In this document: positions 1 through 27,782 of the stretch, in pieces
Position numbering within the stretch: the stretch's first letter is position 1
Layout of the letters: the number at the start of each line of letters is the position of its first letter
Notes under the pieces: model-generated
Databases searched by the model: none
Told to the model about the DNA's origin: nothing
Seen by the model: only the letters and a program-made list of their open reading frames with translations
Translations under genes and position numbers: made by a program
Assembly (NCBI GenBank): GCA_001548435.1
Contig: AP017308.1
Span: forward strand, 2,241,030-2,305,029
Direction: 5' to 3'
DNA: 64,000 bases
Origin: Leptolyngbya sp. NIES-3755
Lineage (GTDB): Bacteria; Cyanobacteriota; Cyanobacteriia; Leptolyngbyales; Leptolyngbyaceae

Positions 1-131
1 GGAACTATCATCGGTTTCGAGTGAGCCGCATCTTTTCTGGACAAGGAAGCGCGATCGACAAAAATGGCAATCTGAACCTAGAACACTTCTACGGCGCGAT
101 CGAAGTGTCGTTTCTTGTACTGCCTGCTTAA
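1..131 (+). CDS. C-terminal end of an unidentified protein
   Basis: A reading frame open from the left edge ends at a TAA at 129-131 and gives about 42 residues ending in EVSFLVLPA. It lies 17 bases before the creatininase gene on the same strand, so it may be the last part of the gene ahead of it in the same transcript. I do not recognise the family. The coding call rests only on openness, plausible composition and position. Confidence 0.4.
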   Translation, partial: NYHRFRVSRIFSGQGSAIDKNGNLNLEHFYGAIEVSFLVLPA

Positions 132-148
132 TCTGAGAGGAAAAAACA

Positions 149-913
149 ATGCACCCGTTATTAATGGGCTGTCTGAGTTGGGTGGAATATCAGCAACGAA
201 TACAAGAAAGTTCGATCGTCTTAATTCCCTGTGGCGCATTAGAGCAGCATGGTCCGCATTTGCCATTGGGAACCGATGCTTTATTGAGTAGTGCGATCGC
301 TCAAGGAGTCGCAGAACAGATCAATGGCATTGTTGCTCCAACCTTTAGCTATGGTTATAAATCTCAGCCCAAATCGGGTGGCGGACAGCACTTTCCAGGA
401 ACCACCAGTCTAGACGGTCATACCTTGAGCCAAATGCTGCGGGATGTGATTCGAGAGTTCGATCGTCAAGGCGTGAAGCATCTTGTTGTTCTGGATGGAC
501 ACTATGAGAATCAGTGGTTTTTGACTGAAGGCATTGATCTTGCACGGCGGGAAATTGGACAGACTCATTTGCGAGTGATGCGATTAGAATATTGGGATTT
601 TTTAAGTGAAGCCACTTTAGAAACTGCTTTTCCAGAAGGCTTTCCAGGATTTGCACTAGAACATGCGGCTGTAATGGAAACCTCATTAATGTTGCACTAT
701 TATCCTGATTTAGTGCGATTGCATCTGATTCCTGATGATCCACCTGCTGATTTTCCGCCTTATGATCTTTATCCACCGAGATTAGAATGGGTTCCTGCTT
801 CTGGAGTGCTTTCTTCTGCAAAAACTGCGACTGCTGATAAAGGCACATTAATGGCAAATCAAGTGATCGAAAGTATCGCAGCGGCAATTCGACAGGAATT
901 TCAGGCAGTGTAA
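149..913 (+). CDS. Creatininase (creatinine amidohydrolase)
   Basis: A 254-residue cytosolic metal-dependent cyclic amidohydrolase. True creatininases open the creatinine ring to give creatine. The family metal-binding pattern is complete: E32 and H34 in GALEQHG, D43, and H118 with E120 in DGHYEN. The stretches YGYKSQPKSGGG, HFPGTTSLDG, PEGF and LSSAKTA resemble bona fide bacterial creatininases more than the broad creatininase-like family; this comparison is from memory. The length matches the usual 250-260. The ATG at 149 follows a GAGAGG ribosome site. Neighbours are a solute-binding lipoprotein and guanidine-degrading enzymes, so a guanidino-compound substrate is likely. Other cyclic amides remain possible. 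Confidence 0.85.
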   Translation: MHPLLMGCLSWVEYQQRIQESSIVLIPCGALEQHGPHLPLGTDALLSSAIAQGVAEQINGIVAPTFSYGYKSQPKSGGGQHFPGTTSLDGHTLSQMLRDVIREFDRQGVKHLVVLDGHYENQWFLTEGIDLARREIGQTHLRVMRLEYWDFLSEATLETAFPEGFPGFALEHAAVMETSLMLHYYPDLVRLHLIPDDPPADFPPYDLYPPRLEWVPASGVLSSAKTATADKGTLMANQVIESIAAAIRQEFQAV

Positions 914-1024
914 GCGGATTAACAATGGATCGTACTCAAATCGAGTTAAATGACGCTATACTTCTTGCTGCAAATCGTTCTGTGCGATCGCAGTTTGATC
1001 CCCCATTCTAAAGGAGCCGATTCG

Positions 1025-2029
1025 ATGAGCCGTACTACTGATTTACTGAACCGTCGCCAAGCCCTTTGGTTGATGGGTGGATTAGTCGGGAGCATGGCGT
1101 TACACGGTTGCAATCAAACGACAGCAAACTCGTCTGGTACTGCGCCCCTGAAGGCAGGAATTAGTCCTTGGCCCGGTTATGCAGGACACTATATTGCCAC
1201 TAAAAAAGGCTTCTTCAAAGAAACTGGAGTAACCGTTCAAGAGATCAATTTTCCAGGTGCAACAGAATTGATTACCGGATTTTTAGCCCAGCAAGCGGAT
1301 GTCGGTTGGGTGACTTCTGGGGATGCGATTCAGGCAGCGCAGCAAGATCCAACGATGCGAATTATCTATGTAGTGGACTATTCTAATGGTGCAGATGGCA
1401 TCATTGGACGTGGCATCAAAACCCCTGCCGATTTGAAAGGAAAAACAGTTGCGCGGGAAAATTTGCTCTTCACCAATGTTTTACTACGAGAATATTTGAA
1501 GAAAGGCGGGCTAACAGAAGCTGATATCAAAATCAAAGATCTCTCAGCGGCAGATGCAGCAGCAGCATTCGCAGCGAAACAGGTTGATGTGGCAGTTGCT
1601 TATGAGCCTTGGTTGACGAAAACAACTAAGGAATCAGGAGGGGAGATTTTATTTACTTCAAAAGATACAAACTTGATCGCAGATGTGCTGGCAACTCGTC
1701 AGAACATTATTGCAACTCGTAAATCGGAATTGCAGGCTTATATAAGAGCGATCGATAAAGGGGTGAAGTTGATCAATAGCGGCGACCCTGAAGCGGTAAA
1801 AATTGTGGCAGCAGCACTGAATGTCTCAGTGGACGAAGCAAAACAACAGCTTGCAGGAGTAAAAATCTTTGACATTGAAATGAACAAATCCATCGGATTT
1901 AATTCAAGCAATGCGAAGAATATTATGAAAAATCTTGAGCTTAGTATTGATACAGGCAAACAGATGAAAGTGATTGGAGATATTAAAGTTGAGAATCTGT
2001 ATGATGACTCGATCGTGAAGTCGCTGTGA
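1025..2029 (+). CDS. ABC transporter solute-binding lipoprotein, NitT/TauT (NMT1-like) family
   Basis: A 334-residue periplasmic binding protein for a NitT/TauT-type importer. The N-terminus has Arg residues, a hydrophobic stretch and a lipobox-like LHGC, so it is probably exported and lipidated. The KAGISPWPGY start, TPADLKGKTVA and VDVAVAYEPW are typical of the SsuA/TauA/NMT1 fold. The ATG at 1025 is chosen because AAGGAG lies just before it; an upstream in-frame start at 950 lacks such a site. The gene follows the creatininase after 111 bases. No cognate permease or ATPase is in view; they may lie left of the window. The substrate is unknown; a guanidino or ureido compound is inferred from context. 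Confidence 0.85.
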   Translation: MSRTTDLLNRRQALWLMGGLVGSMALHGCNQTTANSSGTAPLKAGISPWPGYAGHYIATKKGFFKETGVTVQEINFPGATELITGFLAQQADVGWVTSGDAIQAAQQDPTMRIIYVVDYSNGADGIIGRGIKTPADLKGKTVARENLLFTNVLLREYLKKGGLTEADIKIKDLSAADAAAAFAAKQVDVAVAYEPWLTKTTKESGGEILFTSKDTNLIADVLATRQNIIATRKSELQAYIRAIDKGVKLINSGDPEAVKIVAAALNVSVDEAKQQLAGVKIFDIEMNKSIGFNSSNAKNIMKNLELSIDTGKQMKVIGDIKVENLYDDSIVKSL

Positions 2030-2690
2030 TCAGTTGTTCTGAAGTTGCCACCCAACCGATTGCCCCATTTTCAGATAGTAGAACTGCGATCGCGGCTTCG
2101 TGTTCGATCGGATCAAAGGCTGCACAACAATCTTCTAGCAAAAGCGCATAAAATCCTAAATCACTAGCTTGTCGATAGGTTCCTAGCACACAGCATTGTG
2201 TCGTCACGCCTGTAATCAACAGATGAGTGATATCACGTTGGTGAAGTTGCTTCTCTAGGGAAGTTCCAATGAAGATAGATTGTGCAGGCTTATCCAACTG
2301 CCAGTCGTTTGCTTGCGGTGCTAGTTCCGGGAGAATTTCAGTTCCTGGTTCACCTTGAATGAGAAATTTTCCTCGATCGCCCAAACTGCCGACCGGATAG
2401 CCTGCGTTCGTATACCGTAATTGTTTGCTCGGTGACAAATCAGAGAGATCTGGTTTATGACTTTCTCGCGTGTAGATGATCCAAATTCCTTGACGACGTG
2501 CCCATTCAATCACGTTCCGCAATCTTGGTATCATGGCTTGAATTGCAGATACATCCGCTTTGAGATTTGCACTACAAAAACCAGTACGATCGCAGAAATC
2601 GATCTGCATGTCGATCACAAGCAGTGCCGTCTGTGATACGTCAAATTCAAACGGATGCTGACGAGTTAGAACTGTTCTTTTAGTTATCAT
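1983..2690 (-). CDS. Isochorismatase-family cysteine hydrolase, biuret-hydrolase-like
   Basis: A 235-residue cysteine hydrolase of the isochorismatase-like fold. The catalytic triad is visible: Asp in LLVIDMQIDFC, Lys in LDKPAQSIF and Cys in GVTTQCCV. The segments YTRESHKPDLSDL, GEPGTEILPEL and LLLEDCCAA resemble biuret hydrolase (BiuH) more than RutB or nicotinamidase; this is from memory. N-carbamoylsarcosine amidohydrolase, a creatinine-pathway enzyme, belongs to the same fold and is an alternative. The ATG at 2690 is preferred over a TTG at 2708. Its 3' end overlaps the convergent solute-binding gene by 47 bases. It lies on the strand opposite the rest of the island, so it is separately transcribed. 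Confidence 0.8.
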   Translation of the reverse strand: MITKRTVLTRQHPFEFDVSQTALLVIDMQIDFCDRTGFCSANLKADVSAIQAMIPRLRNVIEWARRQGIWIIYTRESHKPDLSDLSPSKQLRYTNAGYPVGSLGDRGKFLIQGEPGTEILPELAPQANDWQLDKPAQSIFIGTSLEKQLHQRDITHLLITGVTTQCCVLGTYRQASDLGFYALLLEDCCAAFDPIEHEAAIAVLLSENGAIGWVATSEQLITATSRSSHHTDSQL

Positions 2691-2775
2691 TCTTTGAACG
2701 TAGAACAACGATCGTCATCAGATTGCTATTCTCGATACTGAATTTAGAAATGTTTTATCGAATCGACGGAGACAA

Positions 2776-3543
2776 ATGATGGCGCGATTAAGTGGAAAGA
2801 TTGCTTTAATCACAGGTGTGAGCGCGGGAATTGGGCTTGCTGCTGCACGATTATTTGCATCAGAAGGCGCATCTGTGTTTGGAGTCGATCGAAATGTTGA
2901 AGCAGGACAAACGTTAGCTGATGAACTCAACGAACAAGGAATGAATTTTGAGTTTTTTGCCGCAGATTTATCCGATCGGCAAACCGCGATCGCAGTTGTA
3001 GAACAGTGTTATCGACGCTACAACCGAATTGATATTCTCTACAACAATGCGGGAATTTCATCGATCGAGCCTTTCACCGCTGTCGCACCTGAGACATTAG
3101 AGAACCTATTTGCAATTAACTTCATGGCGACCTTTTACCTATGTCAGCAAGTTATTCCACACATGCAGCAACAGAAAAGCGGTGTGATTATTAATACTGC
3201 CTCTGAACTTGCGATCGTCGCTCAACCTTTATACTCTGCTTACTGTGCCACGAAAGGAGCCGTTTTATCTTTGACTCGTGCACTGGCGCTAGAATATGCA
3301 CGAGAGAACATTCGGATCAATGCACTTTGTCCAGGACCGATCGACACTGCACTTCTAAATCAGGAATTTGAGCAAGAAGCTGACCCCATAAAAGCAAAAG
3401 CTGAAAGTGTTGCATTAATGCCGATCGGACGATTGGGAACACCCGAAGAAATCGCCCAAGTCGCATTATTTCTCGCGAGTGATGCACCTCAGTTAATGCA
3501 GGGAGTTGCCCTATTAGTAGATGGTGGAAAAACAATCATATAG
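2776..3543 (+). CDS. Short-chain dehydrogenase/reductase (SDR)
   Basis: A 255-residue classical SDR. The cofactor motif TGVSAGIG lies near residue 14, followed by an NNAG motif, a catalytic Ser in NTASE, and Y-x3-K in YCATK. The tail LVDGGKTII is typical. D in VDRN after the second strand suggests NAD(H) preference. GGAGA precedes the ATG by three bases. It is divergent from the isochorismatase gene, with 85 bases between them, and ends about 100 bases before the guanidine riboswitch. The substrate cannot be told from sequence; a role in the nitrogen-compound island is only positional. Confidence 0.85.
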   Translation: MMARLSGKIALITGVSAGIGLAAARLFASEGASVFGVDRNVEAGQTLADELNEQGMNFEFFAADLSDRQTAIAVVEQCYRRYNRIDILYNNAGISSIEPFTAVAPETLENLFAINFMATFYLCQQVIPHMQQQKSGVIINTASELAIVAQPLYSAYCATKGAVLSLTRALALEYARENIRINALCPGPIDTALLNQEFEQEADPIKAKAESVALMPIGRLGTPEEIAQVALFLASDAPQLMQGVALLVDGGKTII

Positions 3544-3644
3544 TAGCTTTGAATACAGTTTTACGCTCTATCTTTGTTCATATTTACATCTATCTCCAAT
3601 TCATGCTAAAAGTTTTGGCAGACAGATTCACAACACTACAAATT

Positions 3645-3780
3645 TGCTTCTAGGGTTCCGATTCAGCTTGAATGTCTGGTCCGAGAGAAGCCGCTGTTCT
3701 ACCCAGAGCAGCTACACGGAGGGAGAAAAGCCCGGGAGAGCCAACCAGCAGTACGATCGCTGAAGGCTTCCTGGGCTTTT
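3645..3780 (+). promoter_or_regulatory. Guanidine-I (ykkC) riboswitch with overlapping terminator
   Basis: The conserved ykkC aptamer segments appear in order: CTAGGGTTCCG (3650-3660), TGGTCCGAGAG (3677-3687), ACACGG (3714-3719) and AAAAGCCCGGGAGA (3726-3739). These are the hallmarks of the guanidine-I class. The last segment also pairs with CTTCCTGGGCTTTT (3767-3780), giving a strong hairpin ending in Ts just before the deiminase gene. Guanidine binding should hold the 3726-3738 strand in the aptamer, prevent the hairpin and switch expression on. The two-state logic follows the known class; the pairing was read by eye. Confidence 0.93.
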
Positions 3781-3803
3781 GCAGTTTCAAACAGGAGATG
3801 GTG

Positions 3804-4505
3804 ATGTCCCCAGATACAACGATTGACACAGCCCTAATTGCTTGCGATGAAACGATTCCAGGCGGTGCTTACTGGTCGCAGATTGTTCCGCGTAGTCGAA
3901 CATTGCGAATTATGGCTCCAGAAGGATCAAGCGGCGTAGCAATGCTCTGTTACAACGCGGATAACTCGATCGAGCGTTACAATGCTGCCGATACTGCAAA
4001 AATCCAGTTCAATGCGTTTCTCAAAAAAGGTATGGTGCTTTACTCAGACATGGGGCGCGTTCTGTTTTCAATTACTGAAGATACTTGCGGCTTTCACGAT
4101 ACATTAGGCGGCTGTAGTAACCTTGCGACCAATGCGAAGTACGGTGACGGAGATTATAAAAATTCACGCGATAATTTTATGCTTGCCCTGATCAAGCGCA
4201 ATCTTGGCAAAAAAGATATCATGCCGAACCTCAATCTCTTTACTCAAATCAGCGTTGAGCCGAATGGAAACTTAGTATGGGCAGGCAAAACCGCGCAGCC
4301 TGGAGATTTCATTGATCTAAGAGCAGAGATGAATGTCTTGGTCGTTCTGTCAAATTGTCCGCATCCGCTCGATCCGAACTATGATCCGAAGCCGATTCGT
4401 GCGATCGTATGGAATTCTCCCGCCCCGACCTCGGATGATCTCTGCCGAACTGCGAATCCAGAAGTGCTGCGAGGCTTCCAAAATACAGATGCTATTTTTG
4501 CTTAA
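3804..4505 (+). CDS. Carboxyguanidine deiminase subunit-like (urea carboxylase-associated, DUF1989)
   Basis: A 233-residue protein of the urea-carboxylase-associated family. In characterised guanidine pathways two such proteins (CgdAB) deiminate carboxyguanidine to allophanate. The signature DTCGFHDTLGGCSN is present, with Cys and His residues suited to bind metal. ATG at 3804 is chosen because AGGAG sits six bases upstream; GTG 3801 is possible. An in-frame ATG at 3672 lies inside the riboswitch and is not a credible start. The gene is the first under riboswitch control and is followed after 12 bases by a paralogue with the same motif. Which of the two corresponds to CgdA or CgdB was not resolved. 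Confidence 0.9.
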   Translation: MSPDTTIDTALIACDETIPGGAYWSQIVPRSRTLRIMAPEGSSGVAMLCYNADNSIERYNAADTAKIQFNAFLKKGMVLYSDMGRVLFSITEDTCGFHDTLGGCSNLATNAKYGDGDYKNSRDNFMLALIKRNLGKKDIMPNLNLFTQISVEPNGNLVWAGKTAQPGDFIDLRAEMNVLVVLSNCPHPLDPNYDPKPIRAIVWNSPAPTSDDLCRTANPEVLRGFQNTDAIFA

Positions 4506-4517
4506 TCAGGAGTATCA

Positions 4518-5159
4518 ATGATGACTACGATCGATGTTCAGCTTGATCCGAAATTAGCGATCTATGATCAAGTGTTGCCTGCTCGTAAGCCTTGGGCAAA
4601 AGTGATCAAAAAAGGGCAGATTCTTCGCATTGTTGATCTGGGTGGCAATCAAGCCGTTGATTTTCTTGTTTACAATGCGGATGATACGAGTGAGCGCTAC
4701 AGTGCTCCCGATACCATTCGCGCTCAGGGAAACATCTTCATTACCACAGGTACAAAGCTTTACTCGAACGACGGAAACGTTTTGATGACCGTTCTGAATG
4801 ATACTTGTGGGCGACATGATACTTCTGGAGGAGCTTGTAGCTGCGAAAGCAACTCCGTTCGGTTTGGATTAGATAAAAAATGGCAACATGCTTGCGTCGA
4901 GAACTTTCTTTATGCACTGAAAGATTACGGTATGGGCAAACGAGACATGACGAGCAACATCAACTTTTTCATGAATGTTCCCCTGAGTGAAGATGGAACG
5001 CTTGAAATTGTTGATGGAATTTCTGATCCGGGTAGCATTGTCGATTTGCGGGCTGAGATGAATACATTGGTTGTCATCTCGAATTGTCCTCAGATGAACA
5101 ATCCGTGTAATGGCTACAATCCAACTCCGATTCAACTGATTGTGTGGGATAGCATCTAA
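4518..5159 (+). CDS. Carboxyguanidine deiminase subunit-like (second DUF1989 paralogue)
   Basis: A 213-residue paralogue of the preceding gene, expected to form the second subunit of the carboxyguanidine deiminase complex in the cytosol. It keeps the signature [14 protein letters not shown] and the shared segments DLRAEMN, VISNCPQ and [14 protein letters not shown] lies upstream of ATG 4518; a second ATG follows at once. Its stop codon overlaps the start of the carboxylase gene as TAATG, which indicates translational coupling and matched expression of deiminase and carboxylase. Confidence 0.9.
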
Positions 5160-8100
5160 TGTTTCAGAAAGTTCTGATTGCCAATCGTGGAGAAATCGCC
5201 TGTCGGATTATTCGGACCCTCGATCGATTAAATATTGCTTCTGTTGCGGTCTATTCTGAGGCGGATCAGTACACGCCTTTCGTATCGATGGCAACGGAAT
5301 CGATCGCGATCGGGTCTGCATTGGCATCAGATAGCTATCTCAGATGGGATCGAATTCTCGAAGCGGCTCAGAGAACAGGAGCACAAGCAATTCATCCAGG
5401 CTATGGATTTTTGAGCGAGAATGCTGAGTTTGCGGAAGCTTGTGCAGCAGCGGGAATTGTGTTTATTGGACCGACTCCCGATCAGATGCGAAGCTTTGGA
5501 CTGAAGCATACAGCACGAGAATTGGCTGCCCAAAATCAAGTCGCTTTACTGCCAGGAACTTCGCTGTTAGACAGTGTTGAACAAGCCCAAATTGAAGCAG
5601 AGCGAATTGGCTATCCGGTGATGCTGAAAAGTACAGCGGGTGGAGGTGGAATCGGATTACAGCTTTGTCGGAGTCGAGAGCAATTAGCGGAACTGTTCCA
5701 AACGGTACAACGGCTGAGTCAGAACAATTTTAAGCAAGGTGGAATCTATCTAGAACGCTATGTAGAAAAAGCACGACACATTGAAGTGCAAGTGTTTGGG
5801 AATGGACAAGGGGAAGTAATTGCACTGGGCGATCGAGATTGTTCAATCCAACGCCGCAATCAAAAAGTCATCGAAGAAACTCCTGCACCGGGTATCAGTA
5901 ACGAACTTCGCCAACAGCTTTATGATGCAGCATTGCGATTGACGAAAGCTGTAAATTATCGATCGGCAGGCACAGTGGAGTTTGTGTTTGATGTCGATCG
6001 ACAATCTTTCTATTTCCTAGAAGTCAATACTCGCCTACAAGTTGAACACGGTGTCACAGAAGCAGTCACCGGAGTTGATTTAGTTGAGTGGATGATTCGG
6101 TTAGCAGCGGGAGAGAATGGTTTTCTACATCAGCCTAGAACTCAAGGGCATTCGATCGAGGTTCGTCTTTATGCTGAAGATCCCGGTAAGAACTTTCAGC
6201 CGAGTTCTGGAACATTAACTGAAGTCAGTTTTCCCGATTCCATTCGATGTGATACTTGGATTAAGCGCGGGACTGAGATTACACCATACTATGATCCACT
6301 GATTGCGAAATTGATTGTTCATGCAGATTCGAGAGAAAGTGCGATCGCTCAACTAACCGCAGCATTAGAACAGTCAACTGTCGCGGGAATTGAGACGAAT
6401 CTAGATTATTTACGGCAGATTTTAGAAAGTTCGGAATTTGCGATCGCGGATCTTAGTACTCGGTTTCTCGAATCTTTTCACTACGCACCGAACTCGATCG
6501 AAGTGCTTTCCCCTGGCACATTCAGCACGATCCAGGACTATCCGGGACGAATGCACTATTGGAACGTGGGAGTTCCGCCATCAGGATCGATGGATCATCT
6601 TGCGTTTCGACTTGCGAATCGTATCTTAGGAAATTTAGAGTCTTGTGCTGCACTAGAACTTACCGTGACAGGTCCAACATTGCGATTTAACTGCAACACT
6701 GTGATCTGCCTAACAGGTGCGCCGATGCAGGCAGAACTTGATGAAGTTCCAATTCCTTTTTGGTCAGCAATTTCTGTAGCAGCAGGAAGCACTTTGAAGC
6801 TTACTACAATTCAAGGTGCTGGAGCACGAACTTATCTTGCAGTACAGCATGGCTTTGATGTTCCTGACTATCTAGGAAGCAAGTCAACCTTCACATTGGG
6901 GCAGTTCGGTGGACATTGTGGCAGAGTCCTACGAATTGGGGACATTCTAAAACTCAATCGATCAGGTGAAACAATCAATCCAAGTCCAATCTTCCCTGAA
7001 CTGATTCCAAACTATACGAATCACTGGCAAATTGGTGTTCTCTACGGACCTCATGGCGCACCCGATTTTTTCACCGATGAAGACATTGAAATGCTATTCT
7101 CAACCGATTGGGAAGTGCATTACAACTCCGCTCGAACTGGAGTGCGATTAATTGGACCAAAACCAAAATGGGCGCGTCCAGATGGCGGCGAAGCAGGATT
7201 ACATCCCTCGAACATTCATGACAATGCTTATGCGATCGGGACAATCGATTTTACGGGGGATATGCCGATCATTCTCGGTCCTGATGGTCCCAGTTTAGGC
7301 GGATTCGTCTGTCCTGCTACGATCGTACAAGCTGAACTCTGGAAAATCGGGCAGCTTAAGCCGGGTGACAAAGTTCGATTTCAACGTTTAACACTCGCAG
7401 AAGCGATTCAAAAAGAACGAATCCAAGACGAAGAAATCAAAACTTTAAAGCCAGTCGCACCGATTGAAGCTCCAAGTTCTAAGCTGCCAAATAGCGCGAT
7501 TCTGCATGAGATTTCAGCATCTTCAGAACAGCTTGCAGTGAAGTATCGTCGCTCTGGAGATAAGTATCTATTAGTAGAATACGGTGACTTAGTACTCGAT
7601 CTCAATCTGCGCTTTCATGTTCATGCTCTGATGACTTGGTTACTTGAGCATCCACAAGATGGAATTTTGGATTTAACACCGGGGATTCGATCGCTACAAA
7701 TTCACTATGACAGTCGCATTTTATTAGATGAGTTGCTTGATGTCCTAATTGCAGCAGAACAAGAACTTTCTACGATCGATGATCTCGAAATTCCGACTCG
7801 CATTGTTCATCTTCCGTTGTCGTGGGGTGACGAATCGACCCAACTCGCGATCGAGAAATATATGCGATCGGTGAATCCTCACGCCCCGTGGTGTCCAAAC
7901 AACATTGAATTCATCCGTCGCATCAATGGACTAGAAACAATCGAACAAGTTCGCGAAATTGTCTTTAATGCCAGCTACTTAGTTCTTGGTTTAGGTGATG
8001 TCTACTTAGGTGCTCCTGTTGCAACCCCGATCGATCCTCGTCATCGCTTAGTCACGACAAAGTACAATCCCGCTCGAACTTGGACACCCGAAAATGCTGT

Positions 8101-8749
8101 TGGAATTGGAGGCGCTTATCTCTGTGTGTATGGCATGGAAGGACCTGGAGGCTATCAATTTGTAGGGCGCACTGTGCAAATGTGGAATACATTCCATGAA
8201 ACACCAGAATTTGAGCCTGGAAAGCCCTGGTTACTCCGCTTCTTTGATCAGATTCGCTTTTATCCGGTTACTGCCGATGAACTATTACAACTCCGCAAAG
8301 ACTTTATTCAGGGTAGAGCACATCTAAGAATTGAAGAGACTACTTTCAGTCTGAAACAATACAACGAATTTCTTCGATCGATTGCAACCGAAACCGCAAT
8401 TTTCAAAGCCACTCAGCAAGCCGCATTTGAAGCAGAGCGCGAACGTTGGGCAGCAAATCCTCTCCTAGCTCAAGTTGCTGAAGATCCAGAAGCAACCGTA
8501 GAAGAGCAATCATTTGAGCTTCCTCCGAATAGTCAAGCTGTCATCGCACAAGTGCCCGCGAACGTGTGGCAGATCGTGGCTGAAAAAGGCGCAACCGTGA
8601 AAGCAGGCGATCGCTTAATTATTTTAGAGTCGATGAAAATGGAGATTACCGTAGATGCTCCGACTGACGGAACGATTTCCGAAATCTTCTGTACTCAAGG
8701 GCAAATGGTATCGACTGGACAAATGCTATGTGTGATTCAACAGACTTAA
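5159..8749 (+). CDS. Guanidine carboxylase (urea carboxylase family, biotin-dependent)
   Basis: A 1196-residue single-chain carboxylase. Its parts in order are: biotin carboxylase N-domain (about 1-110), ATP-grasp (about 115-320) with the glycine-rich GGGGIG loop, biotin carboxylase C-domain (to about 450), carboxyltransferase AHS2-like half (about 465-770), AHS1-like half (about 800-1010), and a C-terminal biotinyl domain with ESMKME, where K1160 should carry biotin. The family uses ATP and bicarbonate to carboxylate urea or guanidine. The guanidine-I riboswitch and deiminase genes upstream point to guanidine, giving carboxyguanidine. No allophanate hydrolase domain is fused, and none follows in the window. 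Confidence 0.92.
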
Positions 8750-11244: not shown

Positions 11245-12021
11245 CTAAGCTTTTTCGACTTCGACCTTGGCATCATCAAGATCGTAATAAGCTGTGACAA
11301 CTTTTAGAGAGCCGTCTTTAATTGCCTTTGCCAAAATTGGAGACTGCCTGATGCGATCTGCCTGCCGCTTCATGTTGGCTTTAATCGATGCACTGAGATC
11401 GCTCCCTTCAGTTTTTCCCCGATTGGGTTCTACCGCAGGTTTAATTTCAGGAGTAAGGACTTTCATCTTGCTCAAAACACTGGATTGATCACGAAGAATC
11501 GCTTGAACAATAGGTTCTCGATCGCTACCCATGACCATAATCAAAGGGACTTTGAGAGTTCCCACCGCATATTCGAGTGATTCAATAATTTCTGGAGTCG
11601 CAGCAAAGCCAGCAATGCGGGCAACAAATAGATCGCCAATCCCTTGATCAAAAATAATCTCTGGGCTAACTCGCGAATCCGCTGAACAAAGAATTGCAGC
11701 AAAAGGAAACTCATCTACTGCTGTATCTTGCACCCTGGCAAAACTATGACGAGGATTGGCAGATTTTCCTTCAGCAAAGCGCTTGTTTCCGTCTGCTAGC
11801 AATTTCAAAGCTTCATCGGGTTTCATTTCATTCGGTCGTCGTTCGATCGCTTGATCTACAGTCGTTGTCTGTGCAACTGGAGAAGCGGTTGCTGCTGGTG
11901 TATTGCCCGTGGTCTGAGTGTTAGCCTGAGCGCAGGCAGTGGTTGTAATCAGTCCAAATCCTGCTGCACCTAACGTTCTGACTAAATGACGACGACGCAA
12001 CATTTTAGTAGGATAGTTCAT
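11245..12021 (-). CDS. Tat-exported beta-carbonic-anhydrase-like protein lacking the HxxC zinc motif
   Basis: A 258-residue protein with a twin-arginine leader (RRRHLVRTLG) and a following Cys in TTACA, so it is probably periplasmic and perhaps lipidated. The middle is a beta-carbonic anhydrase fold: FAAILCSADSR holds the first Zn Cys and its Asp-Arg dyad, and DLFVARIAGFAATPE matches the active-site strand. Where the family has MGHxxCGA, this protein reads VMGSDREPIV, so both His and the second Cys ligand are missing. Zinc hydration activity is therefore doubtful. AAAGGAGG sits seven bases before the ATG at 12021. Confidence 0.85.
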   Translation of the reverse strand: MNYPTKMLRRRHLVRTLGAAGFGLITTTACAQANTQTTGNTPAATASPVAQTTTVDQAIERRPNEMKPDEALKLLADGNKRFAEGKSANPRHSFARVQDTAVDEFPFAAILCSADSRVSPEIIFDQGIGDLFVARIAGFAATPEIIESLEYAVGTLKVPLIMVMGSDREPIVQAILRDQSSVLSKMKVLTPEIKPAVEPNRGKTEGSDLSASIKANMKRQADRIRQSPILAKAIKDGSLKVVTAYYDLDDAKVEVEKA

Positions 12022-27313: not shown

Positions 27314-27782
27314 CGGAGAAGAGTCAGCGAGGCGGTTGCGGATTCGATCAGAATCTGAGGAAAGTCCGGACTCCCAAAAACCCAGACTTGCTGGATAACG
27401 CCCAGTGCGCGTGAGCGTGAGGAAAGTGCCACAGAAAAATACCGCCAAGAGGTACGGGGTGCGGGGTGCGGGGTGCGAGGGGATGAACCCTCATACCTCA
27501 CACCTCATACCTCACACCTCTTCTGGTAAGGGTGCAAAGGTGCGGTAAGAGCGCACCAGCAGTATCGAGAGGTACTGGCTCGGTAAACCCCGGTCGGGAG
27601 CAAGGTCGGACGAAACAAAGGTTGGGTTTTTTCCTGTTTCGACAGCTTACAGACTTCTTCGGAAGCGAGGTGAGCGTGAACCGCTTGAGGTTGGAGGCAA
27701 CTTCGATCCCAGATAGATAACTGCCCTCCGTTGCAATTTGCAGCGCGAGAACAGAATCCGGCTTATGTCTAACTCTTCTCTT
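27314..27782 (+). ncRNA. rnpB: RNase P RNA (type A) with expanded P12
   Basis: The universal core blocks are present: GAGGAAAGTCCGGACTCC near the 5' end, and AGATAGATAACTGCCCTC near the 3' end. P1 is formed by GAGAAGAGT (27316-27324) and ACTCTTCTC (27772-27780), which sets the ends to within a few bases. The RNA is the catalytic part of tRNA 5' processing. Between about 27450 and 27521 the P12 arm is enlarged by heptad repeats. It is long for a cyanobacterial rnpB because of this insertion. Confidence 0.95.
27449..27521 (+). repeat. Heptad repeats (STRR type) forming an extended P12 helix of rnpB
   Basis: Three copies of GGGGTGC (27456-27476) face a complementary run of CCTCATA/CCTCACA heptads (27488-27520) across a GATGAA loop. 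The two arms are each about 33 bases and pair along their length with G-U wobbles and a few mismatches. Heptad short tandem repeats at this place in rnpB are known from other filamentous cyanobacteria. Confidence 0.85.

Follow-up and report, generated by a model that had tools for sequence, protein, structure and literature searches.

The stretch of DNA analyzed here (the window) comprises 64,000 nucleotides from Leptolyngbya sp. NIES-3755. All genes named in an initial annotation of its first 9 kb, i.e., a creatininase, a solute-binding lipoprotein, a biuret-hydrolase-like enzyme, an SDR, and a riboswitch-controlled guanidine carboxylase with its deiminase pair, were found clustered at the positions given there. 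The island begins approximately 4 kb upstream of window base 1, so that the window truncates it, and its missing part was read from a longer stretch of the same genome (L003; window positions are L003 positions minus 10029). All features lie on the plus strand unless stated. The order upstream, outside the window, is an ABC permease (L003:5946-6800, minus strand; PF00528), an ABC ATPase (L003:7008-7823; PF00005), a second guanidine-I riboswitch with its terminator (riboswitch 1, L003:7960-8069; RF00442), and a solute-binding protein (SBP1, L003:8152-9153; PF09084 and PF13379). These are followed by an FA_desaturase-like membrane protein, hereafter FAD (L003:9159-10160; PF00487), of whose gene 870 bases precede the window and the last 131 lie inside (1..131), and then by the creatininase. 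The initial annotation had included neither this oxygenase gene nor the second riboswitch, both of which are sited just beyond the window edge. Within the window, the creatininase-family amidohydrolase of the operon subfamily (149..913) is followed by an NMT1-type solute-binding lipoprotein, SBP2 (1025..2029, open frame from 950; PF09084 and PF13379), which is 49% identical to SBP1, an isochorismatase-like hydrolase (IHL; 1983..2708, minus strand; PF00857), an SDR dehydrogenase (2776..3543; PF00106), and riboswitch 2 (3639..3740; RF00442).

Both guanidine-I aptamers passed the Rfam gathering score of 63 bits, with 87.7 bits for riboswitch 1, approximately 2 kb before window base 1, and 84.6 bits for riboswitch 2. 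Each continues into a terminator hairpin built partly from the aptamer's own 3' strand, an arrangement that forms an expression platform. The terminator foldings reached -32.1 kcal/mol (z -6.7) for riboswitch 1 and -30.7 kcal/mol (z -5.6) for riboswitch 2, and in the latter AAAAGCCCGGGAGAG is common to the hairpin (3726..3780) and the aptamer. A promoter and terminator scan yielded counts like those in shuffled sequence.

Riboswitch 2 is followed by the carboxyguanidine deiminase subunits CgdA (3798..4505; TIGR03425, 283.9 bits versus a cut-off of 205.95) and CgdB (4518..5159; TIGR03424, 348.2 bits versus 284.7), which adjoin the guanidine carboxylase (5159..8749). The latter exceeded the curated urea-carboxylase-family cut-off (TIGR02712, 1889.7 bits versus 1303.85). 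According to the accessible part of one study, an Asp at Kluyveromyces lactis position 1330 separates guanidine carboxylase from urea carboxylase, with Asp 1584 as a second signature (PMC11410670). The window's carboxylase carries both aspartates, i.e., Asp697 (aligned to Asn737 of 3va7) and Asp947 in GLGD; the sites were mapped with a numbering offset of 593 from 3va7 to the full-length protein, taken from the 3va7 and 5i8i alignment rows, and that of Asp947 was placed by counting residues within the alignment. Riboswitch 2, CgdA, CgdB, and the carboxylase (unit 2) are the known guanidine carboxylase pathway. A one-chain allophanate hydrolase was below cut-off in the window's genome (best TIGR02713 score 235.5 versus 511); the genome does contain an AtzE-family amidase, which is separated by 163 bases from a stand-alone AH_C domain.

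The creatininase scored 369.9 bits against the TIGR04448 equivalog model (cut-off 235) and is 51% identical to the Pseudomonas creatininase. Residues E34, H36, D45, H120, and E122, which we take to be the metal ligands, were kept in all 36 operon creatininases, as was H178. Position 174, which in the Pseudomonas enzyme holds a Trp that is presumably a substrate-pocket residue, is Phe in 34 of these copies and Tyr in two, with Trp in none; the window's enzyme has Phe. Outside the operon, Trp is found in 1j2t and in five of the six plasmid creatininases read, with Ile in the sixth. The operon creatininases form a separate clade (99/96), and the Phe/Tyr replacement suggests an altered pocket. The description of this protein as a "true-looking creatininase" holds for the family model and the metal site, but it is not a plain member, Trp174 being replaced in every operon copy. 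A creatinase query found no creatinase in the window's genome (best matches 26-27% identity over approximately 130 residues) and, likewise, no match in the 83 FAD loci searched. At three of the six non-operon plasmid creatininases, an M24-family gene that matches the creatinase-like query at 64-100% lies adjacent or one small gene away; as the other three have no such neighbor, the absence of a neighboring creatinase is not decisive by itself.

The IHL is encoded on the opposite strand and belongs to neither riboswitch transcript. Its best NCBIfam model was biuret amidohydrolase, at 192.7 bits versus the NF050097 cut-off of 370, so that "biuret-hydrolase-like" cannot be read as an assignment to the biuret hydrolase BiuH. 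Among solved sequences, it is closest to a "cysteine hydrolase" and to biuret hydrolases; it carries the motifs VIDMQ, LDKP, and TTQCC, and we propose that it may be an acylguanidine hydrolase. The SDR, a candidate carbinolamine dehydrogenase, has the motifs TGVSAGIG at 13 and YCATK at 156; it shares 70% identity with the SDR next to the creatininase of another cyanobacterial locus (L074) but only about 35% identical to the proteobacterial SDR2, within what is a large family. FAD scored 106.8 bits against PF00487 (cut-off 29.7) and has His boxes HEFMH, HIAHH, and HNAHH, the His-box columns being invariant in two alignments (A1 and A3). It belongs to the FA_desaturase superfamily (membrane di-iron), and we propose from its context a role as a (methyl)guanidino-compound hydroxylase. 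In a structure search, the predicted model of the L074 FAD (64% identical to the window's; pLDDT 89) resembled AlkB weakly (E 0.11 and 0.2), and the top two rows were chains of the Orf2971/Ycf2-FtsHi complexes (E 9e-4 and 1.5e-3). A tblastn search of 72,556 plasmid records gave one FAD match, from Gloeothece, at 40% identity.

Loci were collected with FAD alone as the query. The best 80 of 227 relatives comprised 42 proteobacterial and 38 cyanobacterial loci, as grouped by database record names; given that many stem from Comamonadaceae and kin, the counts refer to loci and not to independent events. Duplicate DNA, recognized by equal lengths and genes, occurred in three pairs (L042/L070, L044/L087, and L046/L108), the first of each lying outside the 80. 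Families were assigned to genes from tblastn matches at 1e-8 to generic queries; any SDR close to FAD is therefore counted as an SDR. At least 6 kb of downstream sequence was available at 31 of the 42 proteobacterial loci, and 28 of these 31 have a creatininase. All 28 also hold SDR1, SDR2, and a further protein (protein X), and 26 hold an IHL, with a copy of each of these genes situated 0.5-7 kb downstream of FAD. Both SDRs are likewise missing from the three full-flank loci that have no creatininase. Of the 41 loci that could be assessed, 37 show the guanidine-I pattern at a distance of 1.19-1.39 kb upstream of FAD; this count may be low because a fuzzy pattern was used instead of a covariance model. 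The pattern had no match in five loci after plain shuffling (100 shuffles), nor upstream of FAD in L123, L136, and L141, and Rfam placed the aptamer at the same upstream position in all seven loci scanned.

The carboxylase lies within approximately 11 kb of FAD in 18 of the 42 proteobacterial loci, and 17 of 18 chosen genomes without one at the FAD locus carry a carboxylase over cut-off elsewhere. In 200 genomes of one family, with related genomes counted as separate and an E-value limit of 1e-250, a carboxylase over cut-off was found in 7/7 genomes with FAD and 11/193 without it (Fisher p 1.4e-8, or 1.5e-7 after leaving out the center genome). In Burkholderiales and Halopseudomonas, relatives of the creatininase and the IHL are encoded together in an operon that has a guanidine-I riboswitch. 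The earlier supposition that both enzymes belong with guanidine catabolism is borne out by this shared operon and by the nearby carboxylase.

Among cyanobacteria, the full gene set is rare. A creatininase over cut-off was present in one of 386 cyanobacterial genomes, that of the window, and in one of the 38 cyanobacterial FAD loci; the set is not typical of this phylum. A second candidate, in G101, was rejected, as its creatininase was below cut-off and 35% identical, and the other cluster genes were absent from the fetched stretch. The fuzzy pattern gave no guanidine-I match in the sequence fetched around the 38 cyanobacterial FAD loci, and an Rfam scan of eight of these loci did not find a guanidine riboswitch. 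At the independent locus L074, FAD, a creatininase (75% identical to the window's), an SDR (70%), and an IHL (61%) all lie together, and the genome has a guanidine carboxylase over cut-off. Several cyanobacterial loci carry FAD in other gene settings, which means that guanidines are not necessarily its substrates in every case. The permease in other cyanobacterial FAD loci is 62-84% identical, with the exceptions of L077 (30%) and L094 (50%, 10 kb away). The L003 stretch lacks counterparts of the SDR1, MBL hydrolase, and EamA transporter found in proteobacteria. FAD units without a creatininase also occur (L123, L136, L137, and L163), that of L163 being a small unit in the order riboswitch-FAD-MBL-X-EamA.

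Protein X, which is MgdL-like, was found in 32 of the 42 proteobacterial FAD loci. A conserved Asp-x-Arg pair and a beta barrel are marks of MgdL; in X, residues D41 and R43 (D-x-R) are invariant in 10/10 aligned sequences and lie in strand 38-45 of a predicted beta-rich model (pLDDT 74). In the mgdH-mgdL arrangement, the 2OG-dioxygenase MgdH is followed by MgdL, behind gca and ahead of atzF, in a guanidine carboxylase operon (PMC12508155). Two loci resemble it, i.e., L164 (carboxylase, a 0.9 kb open frame, 2OG-dioxygenase, X; allophanate hydrolase match absent from the fetched stretch) and L166 (carboxylase, 2OG-dioxygenase, X; allophanate hydrolase match approximately 6 kb further). Because X stands behind the 2OG-dioxygenase in both, it is probably MgdL, the enzyme that cleaves N-(hydroxymethyl)guanidine, and FAD is thus probably a replacement for the methylguanidine hydroxylase MgdH. 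In L162, X lies beside EamA, ABC genes, CgdAB, and the carboxylase, with neither FAD nor a 2OG-dioxygenase recognized; in L165, it lies beside none of the genes sought, these two included. The window's genome is without protein X (best match E 0.33).

On balance, we favor the view that the island combines two units, each with its own guanidine riboswitch, into one nitrogen-scavenging pathway, in which unit 1 (riboswitch 1, SBP1, FAD, creatininase, and SBP2, plus the nearby SDR and IHL) would oxidatively free guanidine. That unit 1 supplies guanidine to unit 2 is very likely. Beyond the gene content, riboswitches, conservation, and signature residues observed, we infer the following substrate and reactions. 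The substrate, an N-methylated and probably cyclic guanidino compound, would be imported by the ABC transporter (step a) and hydroxylated beside a guanidine nitrogen by FAD, acting as a desaturase-like membrane oxygenase (step b). The SDR would oxidize the resulting carbinolamine to a cyclic acylguanidine (step c), the creatininase-type enzyme would open the ring (step d), and the IHL would cleave the open acylguanidine (step e). Finally, FAD would hydroxylate methylguanidine, which would lose formaldehyde to give guanidine (step f), aided by an MgdL-type lyase in most proteobacterial loci and unaided in the window's genome. That methylguanidine or a close relative is hydroxylated by FAD seems somewhat probable. 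Creatinine or creatol is put forward more tentatively as the source compound, and the odds are rather against it; in that case, the route would run from creatinine via creatol, its 5-oxo form, oxalyl-methylguanidine, and methylguanidine to guanidine. Steps b and f would both depend on the same oxygenase, which weighs against the pathway.

The score well above the TIGR04448 cut-off, the metal ligands and H178 kept in 36/36 copies, and the 51% identity to the Pseudomonas enzyme would suit a classical creatininase that converts creatinine to creatine, in an island whose genes salvage creatinine, guanidine, and acylureas independently of one another. We consider this unlikely, since no creatinase was found in the genome or the FAD loci, Trp174 is lost in all operon copies, and an independent gene would not be expected to co-occur strictly with SDRs and FAD. 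The residue at position 174 also bears on whether the starting compound is another cyclic or alkylated guanidine (glycocyamidine, 2-aminoimidazolone, dimethylguanidine, or a natural product) instead of creatinine. The altered pocket suggested by a natural Phe or Tyr, together with the FAD units that lack a creatininase, points this way; yet these indicate no particular substrate, and the similarity to creatininase favors a creatinine-like ring, leaving this reading quite unlikely.

An IHL acting as a GuuH-like guanylurea hydrolase or as a biuret/triuret hydrolase, with the island serving guanylurea-type compounds and the creatininase incidental, is quite unlikely. Its nearest solved sequences fit such a role and, in the accessible part of the report on them, guanylurea hydrolases belong to the isochorismatase family and supply the guanidine carboxylase pathway (PMC9800807). 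However, its score falls far below the biuret model's cut-off, and guanylurea can be hydrolyzed without the oxygenase, SDR, and creatininase that accompany the IHL (26/28 loci). Finally, unit 1 might be a transferred fragment without joint function in this genome, as its rarity in cyanobacteria (1/386) and the lack of the proteobacterial accessory genes would allow. Given that L074 independently groups FAD, creatininase, SDR, and IHL in a genome with the carboxylase, and that the island retains two riboswitches with terminators, such a chance neighborhood is highly improbable.

The favored two-unit pathway most resembles the mgdH-mgdL operon of Vreelandella boliviensis, which likewise has a guanidine-I riboswitch, an ABC importer, CgdAB, the carboxylase, and accessory genes for converting methylguanidine to guanidine (PMC12508155). 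Here, however, FAD stands in place of the 2OG-dioxygenase MgdH, the creatininase, SDRs, and IHL are added, and the window's genome has no MgdL-like protein. In the Pseudomonas mendocina guanylurea/metformin degradation system (GuuH, carboxylase, CgdAB, and AtzF), as far as described in the available part of PMC9800807, an isochorismatase-like hydrolase also feeds guanidine to the carboxylase, but GuuH acts on guanylurea, whereas the IHL here accompanies an oxygenase, SDRs, and a creatininase. The creatininase-creatinase route of Pseudomonas putida (PDB 1j2t) shares the creatininase family and the same metal ligands; it differs in that here no creatinase was found, the creatininases form a separate clade with Trp174 replaced, and a guanidine riboswitch stands in front. 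Synechocystis also uses guanidine under a guanidine-I riboswitch, by means of the guanidinase GdmH according to excerpts of PMC8390497 and PMC12186494, whereas the window employs an ATP-dependent carboxylase.

The carboxylase half of the island is thus known, and the second guanidine-switched gene set, common to distant water bacteria, is uncharacterized. No operon joining a guanidine riboswitch and a creatininase was found described in the open-access literature searched, nor did the accessible portions of open-access work on creatininase or creatinine together with guanidine carboxylase yield one; the desaturase named in the open-access guanidine-riboswitch literature covered is the 2OG enzyme NapI. 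In the sections available, the natural origin of free guanidine is called an open question (PMC12186494), and the microbial conversion of creatinine to methylguanidine is listed as not yet characterized (PMC11764249) or termed less characterized (PMC10215027). The conserved operon supplies candidate genes for such a route. In its most specific form, the operon would be an uncharacterized, guanidine-induced bacterial route from creatinine via methylguanidine to guanidine, in which the desaturase-type membrane oxygenase, the SDR, a re-tuned creatininase, and the IHL dismantle the creatinine ring, finished by MgdL where present and acquired by a phototroph, a proposal which taken as a whole is somewhat unlikely. 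If true, it would connect a waste product of vertebrates, creatinine, with guanidine-riboswitch biology and predict a new activity for a desaturase-type oxygenase. The operon is present in Hydrogenophaga flava NBRC 102514 (L146) and H. pseudoflava CZa25-1 (L140), named strains in which the route is testable.

The genes found in the window agreed with the gene list of the initial annotation. Base 1 of the window is base 2,241,030 of the 6.24 Mb contig, and upstream of it lie an ABC permease (- strand), an ABC ATPase (+), a first guanidine-I aptamer, the solute-binding protein SBP1 (+) and the start of FAD (+), an FA_desaturase-family membrane protein whose gene ends at window base 131, 17 bases from the creatininase start. 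Riboswitch 1 precedes a + strand series, SBP1-FAD-creatininase-SBP2; the genes behind riboswitch 2 are those of the carboxyguanidine deiminase subunits CgdA and CgdB and of the carboxylase. In both cases a strong terminator follows the aptamer, formed by pairing of the conserved AAAAGCCCGGGAGAG strand with sequence further downstream. Both riboswitches share the logic proposed for the guanidine-I switch in excerpts of PMC12508155, i.e., that guanidine destabilises an intrinsic terminator.

The non-carboxylase half of the island recurs in distant bacteria as a conserved operon. Searching one-per-species genomes with a FAD alignment returned 227 relatives, the best 80 of which were used (38 cyanobacterial and 42 proteobacterial, by record title). 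In proteobacteria the operon usually runs riboswitch, SBP, FAD, SDR1, SDR2, EamA transporter, creatininase, isochorismatase-like hydrolase (IHL), MBL-fold hydrolase and a protein named X. Some loci continue with riboswitch, permease, ATPase, CgdA, CgdB, guanidine-II riboswitch and carboxylase; others carry this block and an allophanate hydrolase upstream instead. For the 31 proteobacterial loci, from the best 80 of 227, with at least 6 kb downstream, genes lying within about 11 kb were counted: SBP was present in all 31, EamA and X in 29 each, SDR1, SDR2, creatininase and IHL in 28 each, MBL type a in 23 and carboxylase in 16. Operon members lay 0.5-7 kb downstream of FAD, except for extra SDR matches in loci L101 and L122. 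Among cyanobacteria, creatininase exceeded the cut-off in one of 386 genomes, that of the window. FAD homologues (E at most 1e-20) were found in six of the 386, the window's genome among them, and a guanidine-I riboswitch in 121.

All 28 creatininase loci from the best 80 of 227 also carried SDR1, SDR2 and X, and 26 carried IHL. Both SDRs were absent from the three other loci of the 31, L123, L136 and L137, which have no creatininase. Creatininase and the SDRs therefore look like a single added block, whereas FAD combined with X, IHL or MBL looks like a base module. The 8 kb contig of L163 holds riboswitch-FAD-MBL-X-EamA and none of the remaining genes sought.

A fuzzy guanidine-I pattern, which gave 0 matches when five loci were put through 100 plain shuffles, lay 1.19-1.39 kb upstream of FAD, in the same orientation, in 37 of 41 assessable proteobacterial loci (best 80 of 227); L125 was left out, its sequence being too short. 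The pattern was absent upstream of FAD in L123, L136, L138 and L141, with L138 matching downstream instead. None was found in the fetched stretches, some with short flanks, of the 38 cyanobacterial FAD loci (best 80 of 227), and an Rfam scan of eight of these 38 detected no guanidine-I riboswitch. By Rfam, the aptamer was present in the window's locus and in genome G027 (L045), where it stands ahead of ABC genes, not FAD.

As a co-occurrence test less dependent on the locus collection, we used 200 genomes of the family of genome G387. FAD occurred in seven and carboxylase over the cut-off in 18, which included all seven FAD genomes (Fisher p 1.4e-8, or 1.5e-7 without the centre genome; these p values ignore relatedness). 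When 18 genomes whose FAD locus lacks a carboxylase were chosen, 17 encoded one over the cut-off elsewhere, the sole exception being the genome of L135.

Other cyanobacterial settings of FAD were observed. In L042 (same DNA as L070), L043, L044 (same DNA as L087) and L086, its neighbours are an ABC transporter, an isochorismatase-like protein and an MBL-fold hydrolase; no creatininase was found, Rfam detected no guanidine riboswitch in these stretches, and these loci are a variant module. In L088-L093 and L108 (Nostoc and others), a FAD 48-56% identical to the window's has a conserved unknown gene on either side (clusters C7 and C8), and this branch may therefore do something else.

The carboxylase half is an ordinary, known unit, and riboswitch-CgdA-CgdB-carboxylase is also present in genomes G185, a member of the window's family, G060 and G129. 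Judged from its sequence by the two-aspartate rule, which separates guanidine from urea carboxylase in the portion of PMC11410670 consulted, the window's enzyme is a guanidine carboxylase. Only carboxylase fragments >1.5 kb in FAD loci were considered (n = 14); the discriminating site was covered in 13, all with [IV]DFTGD. No one-chain allophanate hydrolase exceeded the cut-off in the window's genome. A stand-alone AH_C (allophanate hydrolase C-terminal) domain followed by an adjoining AtzE-family amidase (L147:9481-11410, i.e., C1:4190480-4192409 of that genome) is possibly a split allophanate hydrolase.

Protein X had no Pfam match. A profile search of the class to which genome G386 belongs (369 genomes) located it at eight places in seven genomes, three at FAD loci (L133, L161, L163) and two at dioxygenase loci (L164, L166). 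L166 reads riboswitch I, SBP, permease, ATPase, CgdA, CgdB, riboswitch II, carboxylase, DIOX_N/2OG-FeII_Oxy protein and X; L164 is alike, except that a 0.9 kb open frame separates carboxylase from dioxygenase and that neither riboswitch I nor allophanate hydrolase was found in its fetched stretch. Both have the arrangement of mgdH (methylguanidine hydroxylase) and mgdL (N-(hydroxymethyl)guanidine lyase) given in PMC12508155, where MgdL is described as a beta barrel whose catalytic residues are D49 and R51. In X, an invariant D-x-R is sited in a strand of the beta-rich structure model, and with the gene arrangement this led us to take it as probably MgdL-family. FAD would therefore occupy the hydroxylase's place, by analogy the strongest hint to its function. 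X was searched for and absent in the window's genome; PMC12508155 reports that hydroxymethylguanidine also breaks down on its own, its half-life exceeding 1 h. Drouetiella hepatica (L095) is one cyanobacterium with FAD, IHL and X together. The other three of the eight places are L162, L165 and L167. L162 (G474:C16:41001-61000) has an X/MgdL-like protein, EamA, ABC genes, a 33% creatininase-like match, CgdAB and carboxylase, with no FAD recognised, and L165 has X but none of the genes sought. By eye, L167 (G755:C1:4001701-4021700) holds a second, diverged MgdL-like protein alongside a spermidine-type ABC transporter, preceded by two short ORFs resembling fragments of a 2OG-dioxygenase.

The window's creatininase is 51% identical to the Pseudomonas putida enzyme, whose numbering is used here. 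E34, H36, D45, H120, E122, W154 and H178 were kept in all 36 operon creatininases. A tree branch supported at 99/96 has all 36 on one side, and the two cyanobacterial copies group together; the placement of some non-operon rows, which form long branches, is unsure. Position 174 is Phe in 34 operon copies and Tyr in two, versus Trp, which we take to be a substrate-pocket residue, in the P. putida structure 1j2t and in all but one of the six non-operon plasmid creatininases (the exception has Ile). Ala at 175, 179 and 180 is constant in operon copies but less telling, because it also occurs in three, three and one of those six. Structures 3a6e and 3a6f seem, from their printed sequences, to be W174F mutants.

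Creatininase opens a cyclic acylguanidine, and a creatinine-to-methylguanidine route would pass through 5-oxo and oxalyl intermediates. Four activities would be required for it, those of oxygenase, dehydrogenase, ring-opening amidohydrolase and acylguanidine hydrolase, and demethylation of methylguanidine would come after them; we infer that the operon's gene set fits these four activities. Passages of PMC3775425 describe creatinine oxidised at C5 to creatol and then methylguanidine, and part of PMC9800807 describes guanylurea hydrolase, an IHL enzyme, freeing guanidine from guanylurea. Two reviews list microbial conversion of creatinine to methylguanidine as uncharacterised or less characterised (PMC11764249, PMC10215027, in the parts seen), and no description of the creatininase-FAD unit was found in the open-access literature searched. 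The joint function of the island genes is well supported, their substrate is not. Elsewhere in the window, 11245-12021 (-) looks by eye like a secreted beta-carbonic anhydrase, and 27320-27780 (+) is a bacterial class A RNase P RNA with a long insert mid-way.
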